From assembly GCA_947371275.1 (NCBI GenBank), contig CANBOV010000001.1:18182-82181 (forward strand): a stretch of 64,000 bases of DNA, written 5' to 3'. The translations under genes were made by a program, and so were the position numbers. This DNA is from Flavobacteriaceae bacterium (GTDB lineage: Bacteria; Bacteroidota; Bacteroidia; Flavobacteriales; Flavobacteriaceae). The notes below the pieces were generated by a model. That model worked only from the letters and a program-made list of their open reading frames with translations. It made no database searches and had not been told where the DNA came from. Of this stretch, positions 1,931 through 11,119 are shown piece after piece. How positions within the stretch are numbered: the first letter of the stretch is position 1; every line of letters starts with the position of its first letter.

Positions 1931-2887
1931 TTAAAATACAGAAGATGCAATTGCCTTAATATTCTCGGCCTTTCCCATTGAATAATAATGTAAGACTGGA
2001 ATGCCGGCAGCTACTAATTCTTTACTTTGAGCAATACACCATTCAATCCCAATTTGTTTCACAACATCATTATCTTTAGCTTTTACTACGGCCATTATTA
2101 AATCGTCGGGCAACTCTATGCTAAATCGATGTGGAATCAAGTTCAACTGCTTCTTTGTAGCAATAGGTTTCAATCCTGGAATAATAGGAACCGTAATTCC
2201 CGCAGTTCTACATTTATCAACAAAATCAAAGAACTTTTTATTGTCAAAAAACATTTGAGTAATAATATAGTCAGCGCCATTTTTAATTTTTTCTTTCAAA
2301 AAATGAATATCACTATCTAAACTTGGTGCTTCCATGTGTTTTTCAGGATAACCAGCCACACCAATACAGAAATTTGTTTTTGCGGAATTCTTTAAATCTT
2401 CGTCTAAATAAATACCGTTATTTAAATTACTAATTTGTGTGACTAATTCACTTGCATATTCATTTCCCTCCTTTTCAGCATGAAAATAGGTCTCAGTTTT
2501 CAACGCATCACCACGCAGGGCAACCACATTATCAATCCCTAAGAAATCCAAATCGATTAAAAGGTTCTCTGTATCCTCTTTAGTAAATCCACCACACAAA
2601 ATATGCGGAATAGCATCTACATTATATTTGTTTTGAATTCCCGCACATATTCCAACTGTTCCTGGCCGTTTCTTAACAATCTTCTTTTGCAGCAAACCGC
2701 TTGGCAATTCTTTATATTCATATTCTTCACGATGGTAGGTTACATCTATAAACGGGGGAGTAAACTCCATTAATGGGTCTATACTATCAAATATAGATTG
2801 AATATTTTGCCCTTTTAATGGTGGCAATATTTCGAAAGAAAATAACGGTTTACCGTTTGCATTTTCTATATGTTGGGTTACTTTCAT
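1931..2887 (-). CDS. metF: Methylenetetrahydrofolate reductase
   Basis: FSFEILPPLKG, EYASELV, ADYIITQMFFDN motifs; downstream of metH. Confidence 0.95.
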   Translation of the reverse strand: MKVTQHIENANGKPLFSFEILPPLKGQNIQSIFDSIDPLMEFTPPFIDVTYHREEYEYKELPSGLLQKKIVKKRPGTVGICAGIQNKYNVDAIPHILCGGFTKEDTENLLIDLDFLGIDNVVALRGDALKTETYFHAEKEGNEYASELVTQISNLNNGIYLDEDLKNSAKTNFCIGVAGYPEKHMEAPSLDSDIHFLKEKIKNGADYIITQMFFDNKKFFDFVDKCRTAGITVPIIPGLKPIATKKQLNLIPHRFSIELPDDLIMAVVKAKDNDVVKQIGIEWCIAQSKELVAAGIPVLHYYSMGKAENIKAIASSVF

Positions 2888-2965: not shown

Positions 2966-5629
2966 TTAATCTGCTATATTTGGTGCCAGCCATTTGTTAG
3001 CCAATTCGGTAGAAATCCCTCTACGTTTGGCGTAATCAATTACTTGATCTTCTTTAATTTTCCCCAATCCAAAATACTTACTTTCAGGATTAGCAAAATA
3101 ATAACCGGAAACCGATGCCGCTGGCCACATCGCCATATTTTCGGTTAATTGCACTCCGATTTCGTTTTCTACATTTAGCAATTTCCAAATGGTTGGCTTT
3201 TCTAAATGATCTGGACAAGCTGGATAACCTGGCGCTGGGCGAATTCCTTTATATTCTTCGTTAATCAAATCTTGATTACTCAAGCTTTCATCTGAAGCAT
3301 AGCCCCAAATTTCCTTTCGAACTTTTAAATGCAAATATTCCGCAAATGCTTCTGCAAATCGATCACCAAGTGCTTTAACTAAAATCGAATTATAATCGTC
3401 TAATTGCTTTTCAAATTCAGCCGCTTTTTCATCAACTCCAAATCCTGTTGTCACACAAAAACAGCCAATATAATCTTGTTTTCCCGAATCTTTTGGTGCA
3501 ATAAAATCCGCTAAAGCTATATTAGGTGCCCCAGCTGTTTTTTGAGATTGTTGCCGTAAAGTCAAAAGTTGAAGGTTGAAGGTTGAAAGTTGGATATCGT
3601 CATCATTTATTGTATTGGCCGGAAATATTCCTAAAATTCCTTTGGCGGTCAACCATTTGCGGTCAACGATTTGTTGTAGCATTTCTTGAGCATCTGCAAA
3701 TAACGTTGTGGCTTGCTCGCCAACTACTTCATCTGCTAAAATAGCCGGATATTTTCCATGCAATTCCCAAGATTGAAAGAAAGGAGTCCAATCTATAAAA
3801 TCTACTAATTCTGAAAGCTCCACTTCTACTTTTTGGGCTCCGATAAAATTAGGCTGAACTGGATTAAATTTGTCCCAATTCAATTGCAATTTATTTTTAC
3901 GAGCATCTTCAATAGACAAGAAATTTTTATCTCTACTTCTGCTCAAATAGCCTTCTCTTAATTTATCGTATTCCTCGCGTACTGATTTAGCATAAGCTAC
4001 TTTCGTCTCTGCTTGGAGCAAATTACTCGCAACCGTTACTGCCCGAGAAGCATCGTTTACATGAACCACCGTTTCTTTATATTCTGGTGCAATTTTTACT
4101 GCAGTGTGGGCTCGAGAAGTAGTTGCCCCACCAATCATTATTGGAATATTGATATTTAGTTTATCCATTTCTTTAGCGAGATAAACCATCTCATCTAATG
4201 ATGGTGTAATCAATCCACTAAGACCAATAATATCAACATTCTGATCAATTGCAGCTTTAATTATTTTTTCGGGCGGCACCATAACGCCCAGATCAATGAT
4301 TTCGAAATTGTTGCACCCTAAAACTACTGCTACAATATTTTTCCCGATATCGTGTACATCTCCTTTTACAGTGGCCATCAAAACTTTACCCGCAGATGAG
4401 GATTTTCCGTCCTTTTGAGCTTCGATGAATGGCAATAAATAGGCTACTGCCCTTTTCATTACGCGAGCTGATTTCACTACTTGCGGCAAAAACATTTTTC
4501 CGCTTCCAAACAAATCCCCCACAACATTCATCCCAGCCATCAAATTAATTTCGATGACATCAATTGCTTTATCAGACGCGGCTCGAGCCTCTTCCACATC
4601 TATTTCAATGAACTCATCAATTCCTTTCACTAATGAGTGTGTTAATCGATCTTGAACTGAACCGTTACGCCATTCTTGAATTAACTTTTCATTTACTTTA
4701 AAACCACCTTTGAAACTGTCTGCTAAATCCAGCAATCGCTCTGTAGCATCATCTCTCCTGTTTAACAAAACATCTTCAACATGTTCTAATAATATCGGGT
4801 CGATTTCATCGTATATCTCAAGCATTTCAGGATTTACAATTCCCATTGTCATTCCGTTCTTAATTGCGTGAAAAAGAAACGCAGAATGCATAGCTTCTCG
4901 CACTTTATCATTGCCGCGAAAGGAAAAGGAGACATTACTGACCCCTCCTGATATTCCGGCATTTGGAAGATTTTCACGGATCCATTTGGTTGCTCTAAAG
5001 AAATCTAAAGCGTTTAATTTATGCTCATCCATTCCTGTTGCCACTGGAAAAATATTTGGATCGAATATGATATCTTCGGCAGGAAAAAGCACTTCATTTA
5101 CTAGAATATCGTAACTTCTTTTACAAATTTCAATCCGTCTTTCGTAGGTATCCGCTTGCCCATCCTCATCAAAAGCCATTACAATAACGGCAGCCCCATA
5201 TCGTTTAATCAATTTGGCATGATGCATGAAGACATCTTTTCCTTCTTTAAGAGAAATCGAATTCACTATACCTTTTCCTTGAATGACTTTTAATCCTGCT
5301 TCAATAATCTCCCATTTGGAACTATCGATCATAACGGGAACACGCGCAATATCGGGTTCGGCAGCAATTAGATTTAAGAATTTGGTCATGGCATAAATAC
5401 CATCCAACATTCCTTCGTCCATATTGACATCTATAATTTGAGCTCCTCCTTCAACCTGTTCTCTCGCGACTGAAAGTGCTTCTTCATATTTCTCTTCTTT
5501 AATTAAACGTAAAAATTTACGCGATCCAGTAACATTTGTACGTTCACCAACGTTGATGAAATTAGATTCGGGCGTTACAATAAGTGGCTCCAAACCTGAT
5601 AATCGTAAATATTTAAATGCTGTCGCCAT
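2966..5629 (-). CDS. metH: Methionine synthase, pterin-binding/B12-binding/activation modules (split MetH C-terminal subunit)
   Basis: [27 protein letters not shown] (B12 DxHxxG), [15 protein letters not shown]-type activation domain. Confidence 0.95.
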
Positions 5630-6618
5630 TATATCTTTTCTAAAATTGTTCTTGGTCTAAAATCTTTTGCAACTTCGGCGATAGCCCTAATATGCTCTGG
5701 CGTAGTTCCGCAGCATCCTCCAATAATATTTACTAAATTATCTTGCAAATATTCTTTTATTAAGGCTTGCATTTCCATTGGAGTTTGATCGTATTGTCCG
5801 AAGGCATTTGGCAAACCTGCATTTGGATGAGCCGAAATATTCAATTGGGTATTCATTGCTAAACGTTTTAAATAAGGTTTTAATTGATCTGCACCCAAAG
5901 CGCAATTGAATCCGATACTTAACAACGGTATGTGCGCTATTGAAATTAAAAAAGCTTCTACCGTTTGACCAGAAAGTGTTCTTCCCGAAGCATCGGTAAT
6001 AGTTCCTGAAACCATTACAGGCATTTCAATATTACGCTCTTCTTTTACTTCTTCTATTGCAAATAATGCTGCTTTAGCATTAAGCGTATCAAAAATTGTT
6101 TCTACTAAAAGCACATCCACACCGCCGTCGATTAATGCGTTGACTTGCTGTTTATAAGCAAATCGTAAATCATCAAAAGTGACTGCACGAAATCCAGGAT
6201 CATTCACATCGGGAGACATTGAAGCAGTTCTATTGGTTGGACCTATAGAACCCGCAACAAATCTTGGCCGGTCTGTGAATTCATCTGCCACTTCTCGTGC
6301 GATTTTGGCTGATTCATAGTTTAATTCATAAACTAAATCTTCAAGGAAATAATCGGCCATTCCAATAGTCGTTCCCGAGAATGTGTTTGTTTCTACTATA
6401 TCAGCACCCGCTTGAAAATACAAACGATGTACCTCTTTCACTGCTTGGGGTTGCGTGATAGAAAGCAAATCGTTATTACCTTTTAGTGGATGTGAAAAAT
6501 CTTTAAACCTTTCACCACGAAAATCTTCTTCTGAGAAATTATTTCTTTGAAGCATAGTACCCATAGCACCGTCTAATACTAGAATTCTTTCGTTGATGGC
6601 ATCTTTAATTTTTGACAT
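5629..6618 (-). CDS. metH: Homocysteine S-methyltransferase (split MetH N-terminal subunit)
   Basis: [22 protein letters not shown] Zn motif; stop abuts start of the next ORF. Confidence 0.95.
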
Positions 6619-6773
6619 TTATTCTTCTTTACAAAAATTTATAAATAGTACCCTGCGATGAAATAAAAGCCTTCAGTTTAAAAGTTTAAATCTGTTGGAA
6701 ATATTTCCATCTGTAGCTCAGGAGCTCCTAAATTATAGTATGTGTTATCTTGAAAGTGAGAGGAATTCTCTGG

Positions 6774-6874
6774 GTTATCTGTTCTCAATTTAACGAGATA
6801 GAATGTAGCACCTTCTTTTGGCAAAGGGTTGCTAAGCTTTCAACGGGTCTATTCCCTCCAGCTTTCGTGATAAC
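6774..6874 (-). ncRNA. SAM-I (S-box) riboswitch
   Basis: Minus strand: GTTATCACGAAAGCTGGAGGGAATAGACCCGTTGAAAGCTTAGCAACCCTTTGCCAAAAGAAGGTGCTACATTC...GAGAACAGATAAC. S-box core GGAGGGA/CCC..GAA/GCAACC/GGTGCTA, P1 GTTATC/GATAAC; upstream of metH. Confidence 0.93.
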
Positions 6875-7015
6875 AAACAATACGATTATGAACGGCACAA
6901 AGTAAGAACATAGAAACGGGATTTGCAAGCAAATTAAAAAAATAAAAACCTACAACGTTTTAGTGCTACAAGTATTAGTGGATTATTATTGATTAATTTT
7001 ATAAATTACTGTTTC

Positions 7016-8116
7016 TTATAAACAAACAGTTTCTTTTATTTTTAATTTTTCGGAAATTTTTAGAATGTCTGTCAACACTCCTCGAGCGGTCACTTTTTTT
7101 CCAGCTCCAGCACCTTGAATTACTAATGGTATTTCACCATATGATTTTGTGTAAATTTCAATTAAATTATCAGCTCCTTTGAGTTGTCCAAGTGCCGAAC
7201 TTTTCGGCACTGATATTAGTTTAACTTCGAGTTGCCTAGTTTGCACATTTAGTTCGCCCACATAGCGCAACGCATGATTATCCACTTGGGTAATTTTGGC
7301 AATTTGGAATGGTTTGTCAAACAATTGTTTATTGACGGAATACTCAGTCTTACAATGATTTTCATTCAGATTGGGGAGCAAAAGGGATTCAATTTTAATA
7401 TCTGTGAATTCAAATTCTTGTTCGATTTCGCGTGCTAAAATCAATAATTTTCGGGCAACATCATTTCCGGATAAGTCTTCACGAGAGTCGGGTTCTGTCA
7501 ATCCAAAATTTTCAGCATCTACCAAAATTTTAGAAAACGGAATATCTTCATTGGAGAAACGATTAAAAATATAACTTAATGACCCAGAAAACACACCTCT
7601 TATTTTAATAATTTCTTCTCCCGAAAAATATAAATCACTTATTGTTTGAATAACTGGTAATCCAGCTCCAACATTGGTTTCATACAGGAAGGTTTTGCCA
7701 TTTTTATCGACATTTCTTCTGATTTCTCTGTAAAAATTGGTATCAAGTGTATTTGCTTTTTTATTAGCTGCAACAATATTGAATCCGTTTTGGATCAGCC
7801 GAATATAATTTTTGATGATATCTGAACTCGCTGTGGCATCAACCGCAATAAGGTTTTCTAATTCTTGTTCCTGCACATATTCGATAATATCTTCTATTCG
7901 AAATGGAATCGCCGATTGTGCAAAGTTAGCTTCCCATTGATTTTTGAGACCCTCTTTTTCGAAGAAAGCTAAAGTAGAATTGGTGATTATTGGAAATCGC
8001 AAATCAATATTTCTTTTTTCGAAAAAGAATTTTTGACTTTCAATTACTTGGTTTATCAATGTGCTTCCGATATTTCCGATTCCGAAAAGGACTATGTTTA
8101 TTCTAAGCGTTGACAT
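7016..8116 (-). CDS. hom: Homoserine dehydrogenase
   Basis: NIVLFGIGNIGSTL Rossmann, ANKKAN, GVFSGSLSYIFN motifs. Confidence 0.9.
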   Translation of the reverse strand: MSTLRINIVLFGIGNIGSTLINQVIESQKFFFEKRNIDLRFPIITNSTLAFFEKEGLKNQWEANFAQSAIPFRIEDIIEYVQEQELENLIAVDATASSDIIKNYIRLIQNGFNIVAANKKANTLDTNFYREIRRNVDKNGKTFLYETNVGAGLPVIQTISDLYFSGEEIIKIRGVFSGSLSYIFNRFSNEDIPFSKILVDAENFGLTEPDSREDLSGNDVARKLLILAREIEQEFEFTDIKIESLLLPNLNENHCKTEYSVNKQLFDKPFQIAKITQVDNHALRYVGELNVQTRQLEVKLISVPKSSALGQLKGADNLIEIYTKSYGEIPLVIQGAGAGKKVTARGVLTDILKISEKLKIKETVCL

Positions 8117-9104
8117 ATGCTTGTTGTTTTTGTTTGTTAAAAATTGGAGCTAAAATTTGAGCTAACTGTTCAAACTCGATTAAAAAAGCATCATGACCAT
8201 GAATGGAATTAATTTGGTAATAAAAAACATCTTCTTTAACAGCTTGCAATTGTTGATGTGTTTCGCGATTCTCATCGGGGGTGAAAAAATAGTCAGTATC
8301 AACGGCTATAACATGAATCGCCGCTTGGATAGTTTTGGCTACAACCAAAAAATCGCCTCTATCTCTCGTAATATCATTGGTTTTCAGTAAATGATTCATT
8401 AACTTATAGGCAGATAAACGAAAGCGATTTTTGAGTTTTATACCATGATTTACCAACCAATTTTCAATTTGAAAGATGGATAAATTATTGAACTTGTTTC
8501 TTTGAAATCTTTGGTTAAAGGATTGCGGTGTTCTGTACAATAACATGGCATGCAAGCGAGCATCAGCTATCGGGTCATCAGAGTTATTGAGAATTTGATC
8601 CTGTATCAATACATTAGCAATAACCCAGTCTGTGGCTTTCCAATCTGTCGCAATTGGAATTAAATTCTTAACCTTTTTAGGTTGTAAAACGGCCATTTCC
8701 CAGGCAACAGCTCCACCTAAACTACCTCCAATGATAGCAAAAACTTCTTCGATTTTCAAAAAGCGAAGGCCTTCCCAAAAAATACGTGCGATATCACGAA
8801 TGGTAAAATCATGATAGGCCGAAATCAGGTTGCCAAAAATATCATCGTATCCATTCCCAGGAATATTGAACGCAATCACCGTGAAATAATGCGTATCGAT
8901 GATTTTGTCTTCACCTATCAAATCGTTCCACCAGCCTGTTTCTCCTGTTACAGTTGAGTTTCCGGTCAAAGCATGATTCACTGCAACAACTGGTGCAGTG
9001 CCAATTGGCTGACCAAAAACCTGAAAGAATAACGGAATATAAGGTCTTTGTTTTCCGCTTTCTAAATTAAAATGGAATAAGTCTATTTTTTCTAAATTTT
9101 TCAT
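8103..9104 (-). CDS. metX: Alpha/beta hydrolase, homoserine O-acetyltransferase family
   Basis: NHALTGNS, GGSLGGAVAWE nucleophile elbow, HDAFL; between metY and hom, overlaps hom. Confidence 0.88.
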   Translation of the reverse strand: MKNLEKIDLFHFNLESGKQRPYIPLFFQVFGQPIGTAPVVAVNHALTGNSTVTGETGWWNDLIGEDKIIDTHYFTVIAFNIPGNGYDDIFGNLISAYHDFTIRDIARIFWEGLRFLKIEEVFAIIGGSLGGAVAWEMAVLQPKKVKNLIPIATDWKATDWVIANVLIQDQILNNSDDPIADARLHAMLLYRTPQSFNQRFQRNKFNNLSIFQIENWLVNHGIKLKNRFRLSAYKLMNHLLKTNDITRDRGDFLVVAKTIQAAIHVIAVDTDYFFTPDENRETHQQLQAVKEDVFYYQINSIHGHDAFLIEFEQLAQILAPIFNKQKQQAYVNA

Positions 9105-9184
9105 TTTTCTATTTTTTAAAAGACTGTCTAAAGCCGCGAAACTGAAGACAGTCTTAGCAAACAAACCTAACCAATGGTTTTCTT

Positions 9185-10477
9185 TTAAATTAATTGTGGG
9201 CTTTTTACAGTTACAAAAGCCGCTTTTAAATCCGCTTTTAAATCATCGATGTTTTCTAAACCAACAGACAGACGAATCAAATCTTTGGTAACACCTGTTG
9301 CTTCTTGTTCAGCATCAGATAACTGTTGATGTGTAGTGCTGGCTGGATGAATAATAAGTGACTTAGTATCTCCGATATTTGCTAATAATGAAAATAGTTT
9401 GGTAGTATCAGCTACTTTTTTAGCAGCTTCAAATCCTCCTTTTAATCCAAATGTTACTATTCCACTTTTACCTTCTGGCAAATATTCGTCGGCTAATACT
9501 TTGTATTTAGAGGTGGCCAAACCAGGATAATTTACCCATGCCACTTCTTCTTGTGTTTGCAACCATTGGGCTAAAGCCAATGCATTTTCGCTGTGTTTTT
9601 TGATTCTAATTTCCAAAGTTTCTAATCCTTGAATGGTTTGAAAAGCGTTAAACGGACTTAATGCTGCTCCGAAATCGCGTAAGCCTTCAATTCTTACTTT
9701 GGCAATAAATGAGGCAGCTCCTAGAACTTCGTAGTATTTTAATCCGTGATAACCTGCTGAGGGTTCTGTAAATTCAGGGAATTTTCCATTGCTCCAATCG
9801 AAGTTTCCAGCATCAATGATTACACCTCCTAATGAAGTTCCGTTTCCCGTGATATATTTAGTTAACGAATGAATGACAACGTCGGCACCATATTGAATTG
9901 GGTTTAGCAAAAAGGGTGTAGCGACGGTATTGTCAACAATAAAAGGCACTTTGAAAGCTTTGGCTTCTCTTGAAATCGCTTTCAAATCGAGCACATCTAA
10001 TTTTGGATTTCCTAAACTTTCTACGAAGAACGCTCTTGTGTTTTCTTTTGCCCCTTTTGTAAAGTTTTCGGGATTTGCTGGGTCAACGAAAGTTGTTGTT
10101 ATGCCTAATCTTGGCAAAGTAACTTTAAGCAAATTGTAGGTTCCTCCATATAAACTGTTCGATGCTACGATATGATCTCCAGCTTTTAGCAAAACCAAAA
10201 GTGTGGTAGCAATGGCTGAAGTACCTGAAGCGGTTACGACTGCTCCAATACCGCCTTCAAGGGCGGCTAAGCGTTGTTCCAAAATATCATTCGTTGGATT
10301 GTTCAGTCGTGTGTATATAAATCCAGCTTCGGCTAAACTAAAAAGATTGGCAGCATGGTCAGAATTATTAAACACATAGGATGTAGTTTGGTAAATTGGT
10401 ACCGCTCTGGTTCCTGCATTTTTAGTAACGTCGTGTCCCGCATGTAGTGCTTTAGTGGCAAATTTTTGTGTGCTCAT
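9185..10477 (-). CDS. metY: O-acetylhomoserine aminocarboxypropyltransferase (sulfhydrylase)
   Basis: TKALHAGHD, SLTKYITGNGTSLGGVIID PLP motif. Confidence 0.93.
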   Translation of the reverse strand: MSTQKFATKALHAGHDVTKNAGTRAVPIYQTTSYVFNNSDHAANLFSLAEAGFIYTRLNNPTNDILEQRLAALEGGIGAVVTASGTSAIATTLLVLLKAGDHIVASNSLYGGTYNLLKVTLPRLGITTTFVDPANPENFTKGAKENTRAFFVESLGNPKLDVLDLKAISREAKAFKVPFIVDNTVATPFLLNPIQYGADVVIHSLTKYITGNGTSLGGVIIDAGNFDWSNGKFPEFTEPSAGYHGLKYYEVLGAASFIAKVRIEGLRDFGAALSPFNAFQTIQGLETLEIRIKKHSENALALAQWLQTQEEVAWVNYPGLATSKYKVLADEYLPEGKSGIVTFGLKGGFEAAKKVADTTKLFSLLANIGDTKSLIIHPASTTHQQLSDAEQEATGVTKDLIRLSVGLENIDDLKADLKAAFVTVKSPQLI

Positions 10478-10516
10478 GATTTTAAGATTTAAGTTATTAG
10501 TATTACGATTTTTTAA

Positions 10517-10556
10517 AATAAAAAAGTCCCTTTGGATGGTTTACCAAAGGGACTTT
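10517..10556 (-). terminator. Attenuator terminator 2, upstream of metY
   Basis: Minus strand AAAGTCCCTTTGG-TAAACCAT-CCAAAGGGACTTTTTTATTTT, 13-bp stem plus U-tract, 5' of the metY start. Confidence 0.92.
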
Positions 10557-10578
10557 CAAGGTGTAGAGTAATCTACGT

Positions 10579-10674
10579 TTAAGGCTTCCACATTTGGCAA
10601 TAAGGTATAACGATGCAACAACACATCATGTGCATCATTTGGATCATCATCATATTATTTGCTGTTGTGTTCAT
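10579..10674 (-). CDS. Met/Cys-rich leader peptide 2: MNTTANNMMMIQMMHMMCCCIVIPYCQMWKP*
   Basis: 31-aa ORF with 9 Met (including start) and 4 Cys, clustered as MMMIQMMHMMCCC; followed by terminator 2; too short for the ORF track. Confidence 0.88.
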   Translation of the reverse strand: MNTTANNMMMIQMMHMMCCCIVIPYCQMWKP

Positions 10675-10708
10675 TTTTTTTCTAAAATTATGTTGAAATT
10701 ATTTCTAA

Positions 10709-10738
10709 TAAAAAAACCTCTGCCAATGGCAGAGGTTT
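10709..10738 (-). terminator. Attenuator terminator 1, between leader peptides 1 and 2
   Basis: Minus strand AAACCTCTGCCATTGGCAGAGGTTTTTTTATT. Confidence 0.92.
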
Positions 10739-10763
10739 CATTGTATATTTTAAATATTTAAAA

Positions 10764-10832
10764 TTATGCAATAGTGTACTCTGCGGAATTTTCCGGCATC
10801 ATGCAACACATATGGCAATTTGTGAATTTCAT
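10764..10832 (-). CDS. Met/Cys-rich leader peptide 1: MKFTNCHMCCMMPENSAEYTIA*
   Basis: 22-aa ORF with a CHMCCMM run; followed by terminator 1. Confidence 0.85.
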   Translation of the reverse strand: MKFTNCHMCCMMPENSAEYTIA

Positions 10833-10880
10833 CTCTTTCTTATTTTATGAGACAAACTTCTGAACTATTTTTTAAATGAC

Positions 10881-10911
10881 CAAACATAATTTGAAAATTT
10901 AACATTTGAAA
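10881..10911 (-). promoter_or_regulatory. Candidate Bacteroidota promoter for the leader-metYX-hom transcript
   Basis: Minus strand TATGTTTG (TAnnTTTG) with TTTC 19 nt upstream (one mismatch to TTTG). Confidence 0.5.
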
Positions 10912-11020: not shown

Positions 11021-11031
11021 CACACGAAAAT

Positions 11032-11081
11032 GGGAGGAAAAATTTGAACTGATTGCAACCTCGGTAAAAAATGCTAAAGCA
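11032..11081 (+). ncRNA. SAM-II (SAM_alpha)-like riboswitch aptamer
   Basis: GGAGG-AAAAATTTGAACTGATTGCAA-CCTC-GGTAAAAAATGCTAAAG: P1 GAGG/CCTC, loop TTTGAAC..ATTGCAA, 3' GCTAAA strand; at the transcript 5' end upstream of metK. Confidence 0.75.
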
Positions 11082-11119
11082 GAAACTCTCCTTTAGCATT
11101 CCCTGCAATCTTTTTTTTT
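11051..11119 (+). terminator. Terminator-like hairpin overlapping the SAM-II-like aptamer
   Basis: AATGCTAAAG/CTTTAGCATT 10-bp stem with outer GATTGCA/TGCAATC, then T9. Confidence 0.75.

Follow-up and report, generated by a model that had tools for sequence, protein, structure and literature searches.

The leader upstream of metY in a 64,000-nucleotide stretch of DNA from a member of the Flavobacteriaceae (hereafter, the window) is very probably a classical ribosome-mediated transcription attenuator that senses the supply of methionine, and usually also that of cysteine. It would be the first of two attenuators that precede metY, the metX-like gene and hom. Its central feature is a six-nucleotide element, GCAGAG, that lies within a short ORF rich in Cys and Met codons (leader ORF 1) and whose complement, CUCUGC, is part of the 5′ arm of an intrinsic terminator. 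An earlier reading of the sequence alone had proposed that this element acts as an antiterminator. The positions and the complementarity that it reported are exact (Table 1), and the element is indeed located inside the ORF, 3′ of the Cys/Met codons, where it occupies codons 17-18.

The methionine gene cluster and its leader region

The window comes from a genome that resembles Flavobacterium. Leader ORF 1 opens a minus-strand series that continues with terminator 1, leader ORF 2, terminator 2, metY, the metX-like gene and hom, in this order, and metY is the first structural gene 3′ of both attenuators. Based on the spacing of the genes, it is likely that metY, the metX-like gene and hom share a transcription unit. 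The metK gene, located behind a SAM-II riboswitch, is divergent from the metY cluster. MetH is split over two adjoining ORFs (5629-6618 and 2966-5629, minus strand), with the homocysteine-binding part and the rest, and the gene at 1931-2887 (minus strand) looks like metF, judging by its sequence. We view the region as a methionine gene cluster whose candidate RNA controls are of three types: SAM, SAM-II and tRNA-type attenuators. SAM and SAM-II were the only families detected when we searched the window with Rfam, and both are away from leader 1; this search yielded no aptamer before metY. Within 10480-10900, no Rfam leader or riboswitch family reached its gathering threshold, the cis-regulatory near-misses being PyrR (27.3 bits versus a threshold of 54) and Phe_leader (25.6 versus 55).

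Table 1. Features of the two leaders and of the neighbouring genes and RNAs in the window
Feature	Positions	Strand	Remarks
Candidate -33 promoter element GTTTGG	10880..10885	-	From sequence, with relatives inspected by eye
Candidate -7 promoter element GAAGTTTG	10853..10860	-	Resembles flavobacterial TAnnTTTG
Leader ORF 1, MKFTNCHMCCMMPENSAEYTIA	10764..10832	-	Conserved in relatives
Region 1:2, protector hairpin	10764..10817	-	Individual folds and covariation
Region 2, antiterminator element GCAGAG	10779..10784	-	Exact complement of CUCUGC
Region 3, CUCUGC, in 5′ arm of terminator 1	10729..10734	-	Partner of GCAGAG
Terminator 1 (3:4), GAAACCUCUGCC-AUU-GGCAGAGGUUUU	10713..10739	-	12-bp stem, U tract after
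Leader ORF 2 (Met/Cys), MNTTANNMMMIQMMHMMCCCIVIPYCQMWKP	10579..10674	-	
Probable leader-2 antiterminator element CCAAA	10593..10597	-	Only 5 nt in the window
Terminator 2, GAAAGUCCCUUUGG..CCAAAGGGACUUUU	10522..10557	-	Directly ahead of metY
metY, O-acetylhomoserine sulfhydrylase	9185..10477	-	TIGR01326, 633 bits versus cut-off 495
metX-like homoserine O-acetyltransferase	8103-9164	-	Score below equivalog cut-off for MetX
hom, homoserine dehydrogenase	7016-8116	-	Downstream of metX-like gene
SAM riboswitch (SAM-I)	6772-6876	-	Ahead of metH; Rfam search of the window
SAM-II riboswitch	11028-11087	+	Ahead of metK; Rfam search of the window

A flavobacterial-type promoter just 5′ of leader ORF 1 is plausible. 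In many relatives, inspection by eye reveals TTTGG upstream of leader 1 and then, about 21-25 nt further on, a box resembling AnnTTTG. The flavobacterial -7 consensus is TAnnTTTG (PMC9723704). This strict pattern is present in only 18 of 58 relatives, and we did not take the promoter match as proof.

Several features expected of an attenuator are evident in this region. A short ORF with clustered codons for amino acids of the pathway is represented by the putative, conserved leader ORF 1 before metY, in which codons 6, 9 and 10 encode Cys and codons 8, 11 and 12 encode Met. Between this ORF and the gene lies an intrinsic terminator with a 12-bp stem and a U tract, and the interval contains 3 terminator-like sites, as compared to 0.3 expected in shuffles. 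It is important to consider how readily the match between GCAGAG and the terminator might arise by chance. In dinucleotide shuffles, a match of at least 6 nt to the 11-nt arm has a probability of 0.009 for the whole of leader 1, and of 0.018 for the part 3′ of the last Met codon. Because chance produces such a match in 1-2% of single-leader shuffles, we tested relatives; the match is suggestive in the window's sequence alone, and decisive in combination with the relatives.

Conservation and covariation of the antiterminator

We used a sample of 80 metY loci, each with up to 2.5 kb of upstream sequence. A pattern search found leader 1 in more than 40 of the 80 loci, not counting the window, and in nearly all of these Flavobacterium leaders the element reads CCGCAGAG and the terminator includes CCUCUGC. 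The element is read in either of two frames, ..TCC GCA GAG.. (SAE) or ..CCG CAG AGG.. (PQR). A 1-nt indel 5′ of the element shifts the frame, and a second 1-nt indel on its 3′ side restores it, such that the SAE and PQR leaders differ in peptide and retain the RNA element. The codons that make up the element are uncommon in the genes of the window, in the SAE frame (GAG, 18% of Glu) as in the PQR frame (CAG, 14% of Gln; CCG, 13% of Pro; AGG, 6% of Arg). Two Flavobacterium-like metY contigs are filed as MAGs of Bifidobacterium breve (L013) and Candidatus Nitrotoga (L020), which are likely binning errors.

The frame switch bears on the hypothesis that the leader peptide itself acts, e.g., as a Cys/Met-rich metal-binding micropeptide, and that the hairpin is an ordinary terminator. 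The CHMCCMM stretch does look metal-binding, and trans-acting leader peptides exist, e.g., peTrpL (PMC7298713). However, the RNA persists where the second half of the peptide switches frame, leader 1 is devoid of Cys codons in several genera (L112, L115, L108 and L113; e.g., MKLNTNIMSMMMWKVSARATIM), the order and number of Cys and Met codons vary while their spacing to the RNA element is constant, and the element covaries with the terminator, as detailed below. On the strength of the frame switch, the Cys-free genera and the covariation, we rejected a trans-acting or metal-binding peptide, and we regard peptide action as highly improbable.

Across relatives, the most constant feature of leader 1 is the pair of Met codons, ATGATG, beside the element. 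Since leader 1 in several genera lacks a Cys codon, Met supply is the likelier main signal of attenuator 1, and Cys would add to it in most Flavobacterium species. In Flavobacterium psychrophilum (L039), leader 1 upstream of metY has no stop codon, and its ORF runs through the terminator (..SAEYRIASFYFKIYNQTSGNCRGFFI); attenuator 1 may behave differently in this organism.

Within Flavobacterium, the antiterminator helix is invariant in our alignment, and a covariation analysis confined to this genus therefore has no power. We accordingly rely on a covariance model of leader 1 that was searched against 301 genomes of Flavobacteriaceae, with only strong R1 matches counted. The strong matches come from many genera. 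Weak R1 matches (E > about 1e-5) were left out of the count; those that we inspected (L123-L125, L140, L143 and L147) are terminators that have no Cys/Met leader or that precede unrelated genes. Besides the window's own locus, 29 loci were retrieved, and 26 of them have the leader ORF, 23 of these ahead of metY. The metY leaders share the same architecture, and each has its own matching element. Whereas the element and arm are GCAGAG/CUCUGC in Flavobacterium, they are GCAGCG/CGCUGC in 8 loci, GCAAGG/CCUUGC in 2, GCAGGG/CCCUGC in 1 and GCGAAG/CUUUGC in 1.

The formal covariation count was made on an alignment of 25 SAE-frame leaders (A4). In this alignment, 98% of cells in the antiterminator pair, and 14 cells are changed on both sides, as compared to 3.7 in shuffles (0 of 500 shuffles reached this number). 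The covariation score is 0.294 versus 0.097. Controls in which the helix was slid all fail, with 32-45% paired. In another alignment (A3), MAFFT had placed the PQR-type leaders one base out of register, and these were anchored by hand for a permutation of the arms among 29 leaders. This permutation gave 143 +/- 2.7 pairs, while the true combinations have 161 of 174 (0 of 10000 permutations were as high). The covarying alleles occupy at least 4 separate clades in the MetY tree, and the stem of terminator 1 also covaries, with 99.5% of its cells paired across genera. Imperfect antiterminator helices occur in four loci (L107, L117, L119 and L120).

The sequence-only reading would have been undermined by a lack of covariation between GCAGAG and CUCUGC in orthologs; across genera, the covariation is present, and it supports an antiterminator that is mutually exclusive with the terminator. 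It also refutes chance complementarity, i.e., a leader element that is merely like the 3′ arm of the terminator. The shuffles described above do allow for such a coincidence in a single leader, but the match is kept in dozens of leaders and covaries in several clades, and we assign this explanation almost no probability.

Ribosome position, predicted folding and the protector hairpin

We folded the window transcript up to the 5′ arm of the terminator and masked the nucleotides beneath a ribosome, for which we assumed a footprint of about 29 nt. With the ribosome on codons 5-12, the predicted probability of the antiterminator is about 0.98-0.99. It is 0.83 with the ribosome on codon 13, and about 0 from codon 14 through the stop codon. 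These predictions agree with the proposal of the sequence-only reading that a ribosome stalled on the Cys/Met codons exposes GCAGAG, and that one reaching the stop codon covers or passes it. The same exposure and masking are predicted for most of the 59 leaders that we analyzed. In 48 of these 59 leaders, 14-15 nt separate the last control codon from the element downstream of it, a distance that matches the footprint of a ribosome. In 49, the switch is predicted one codon beyond the last Cys/Met codon. Exceptions are L104 and L117, in which a ribosome at the stop codon is predicted to leave the element unmasked.

The sequence-only reading also mentioned a small CGGAA/UUCCG hairpin as a possible alternative fold. 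This hairpin is real, but it is only the apex of a longer, conserved and covarying hairpin over the Cys/Met codons, which in our model corresponds to 1:2 in classical attenuators. In the window, codons 6-8 supply one strand of the lower stem, UGC(C)AUA, and the other strand, UAUUGCA, immediately precedes the stop codon; the GCA of the element is sequestered in the apex, UGC-GGA/UCCGCA. Relatives have a recurring lower stem, in which UGCAAUA within the Cys/Met codons pairs with UAUUGCA just 3′ of the element, and a recurring apex, in which UGUGGA or UGC(C)GGA pairs with UCCGCA and holds the first half of GCAGAG. SAE and PQR leaders differ by 1 nt, which forms a bulge in the 1:2 stem. In alignment A2, the 1:2 stem and terminator together have 7 pairs changed on both sides, as compared to 2.6 in shuffles (0 of 500), and five of these 7 belong to the lower stem of 1:2. 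In the lower stem, 24 cells are changed on both sides when genera are compared, versus 11.7 in shuffles (0 of 500). RNAalifold missed the 1:2 stem in the MAFFT alignment A2, probably because gaps break it; folds of single sequences and evaluation of the named structure recovered it.

Thus a protector that overlaps the control codons is present, but it is weak in the window's own sequence. When the RNA ends after the 5′ arm and is free of ribosomes, the antiterminator is favoured with a probability of 0.96, which indicates that the window's protector is weak at equilibrium. This result, and the fact that the 14-15 nt spacing by itself yields the predicted switch, are compatible with an earlier, bare model, in which the position of the ribosome directly hides or exposes GCAGAG, the upstream hairpin is incidental and there is no functional 1:2. 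However, the lower stem and apex of 1:2 are kept, the lower stem covaries, and in many relatives (e.g., L002, L073, L076, L102 and L111) the upstream hairpin is predicted to hold the element when no ribosome is present. We therefore consider direct masking alone to be unlikely, and favour a classical attenuator with a protector.

In this attenuator, RNA polymerase would initiate just 5′ of leader ORF 1 and be trailed through the ORF by a ribosome. Given ample charged Met-tRNA (and Cys-tRNA), the ribosome would get to the stop codon and cover GCAGAG, leaving CUCUGC available for GGCAGAGG further downstream; the terminator that the two form would stop transcription before metY. If no ribosome is present and 1:2 has formed, GCAGAG would also be withheld in many species. 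A shortage of charged Met- or Cys-tRNA would stall the ribosome on the Cys/Met codons, where it would melt 1:2 and thereby expose GCAGAG directly before its leading edge. Once CUCUGC is transcribed, GCAGAG would pair with it, and the polymerase would pass before the terminator forms. The second Met/Cys leader and its terminator would then repeat the test ahead of metY-metX-hom.

In the full-length window RNA, the terminator always folds at equilibrium (probability 1.00, 12 bp). Folding of the full RNA therefore cannot reveal antitermination, and the decision must be kinetic. With an antiterminator of 6 bp facing a terminator of 12 bp, the model needs both kinetics and the coupling of transcription to translation. 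In classical attenuators, the terminator is likewise the most stable form.

Related leaders and comparison with known systems

In some Flavobacterium (L092, L093 and L139), a gene for a 948-aa TonB-dependent receptor is located between leader 1 with terminator 1 and leader 2 with terminator 2. The two attenuators are therefore separate modules, which are arranged in series in the window. Given its position beside an attenuator, the receptor is a candidate for the import of some sulfur compound. In leader 2, the candidate pairing in most relatives is CCAAAAG with CUUUUGG. Copies of leader 1 with their own matching elements occur before cysE-cysK-cysJI (L137:573-705) and metX-thrA (L145, minus strand), and the element is imperfect (GCAGGGG) in the metX-thrA copy of L146. 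In another family of the same order (L141:540-870), a leader of this type precedes cysH-cysD, with CAGAGGCUU opposite AAGCCUCUG, and a second Cys-rich leader lies in tandem behind it. Separately, we observed leaders that end in ICVCVC or ICVHVC, with the terminator CCCTTTTGG (L139:7092-7258 and L144:4015-4180); in L139, a metX-like open frame is downstream of a leader of this type.

We believe, with somewhat more confidence than doubt, that leader-1 attenuators form one modular family defining a Met/Cys-tRNA regulon, that this regulon extends beyond Flavobacteriaceae to at least one neighbouring family, and that its targets are metY, metX-thrA, cysE-cysK-cysJI, cysH-cysD and the TonB-dependent receptor. 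This proposal includes a two-step gate in series beside SAM-I and SAM-II in the window, and a 14-15 nt spacing that implies functional transcription-translation coupling in Bacteroidota. If true, the ribosome-length spacing would be evidence that ribosomes closely trail RNA polymerase in Flavobacteriaceae. The covariation of element and terminator opens the way to direct tests by compensatory mutations.

Our best reading is that leader 1 is a new member of an established class, the ribosome-mediated transcription attenuators. The proteobacterial trp, his, thr, leu and pheA attenuators have a short ORF containing control codons, 1:2, 2:3 and 3:4 pairings that exclude one another, and a U-rich intrinsic terminator ahead of a biosynthetic gene, and leader 1 has counterparts of all of these. 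Unlike them, its control codons are Met and Cys, the 5′ half of its antiterminator is inside the ORF and forms only 6-7 bp, its targets are metY, metX and cys genes in Bacteroidota, and two leaders are arranged in series.

Within the same bacterial family, strong clues for leader-peptide attenuation before amino-acid operons were reported in F. psychrophilum, where the structured 5′ elements that are named include pheA and hisG (PMC9723704). The relevant section of that paper's main text describes neither a metY or methionine leader nor a mechanism, although its supplementary tables may list metY. In Mycobacterium and other Actinobacteria, ORFs rich in Cys codons precede cys operons (PMC1262725). 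These leaders have no conserved intrinsic terminator hairpin, and their run of Cys codons is near the stop codon, whereas leader 1 has a mixture of Met and Cys codons, a terminator and a covarying antiterminator. None of the papers that we searched, a partial sample of the literature, describes a leader-peptide attenuator that senses methionine.

The RNA control better known for methionine genes is that by SAM riboswitches. SAM-I and SAM-II control methionine genes, as leader 1 would, and both are present in the window, ahead of metH and metK. However, these riboswitches sense SAM directly with an aptamer, and we found none ahead of metY. Sensing of tRNA and sensing of SAM seem to govern parts of one pathway side by side.
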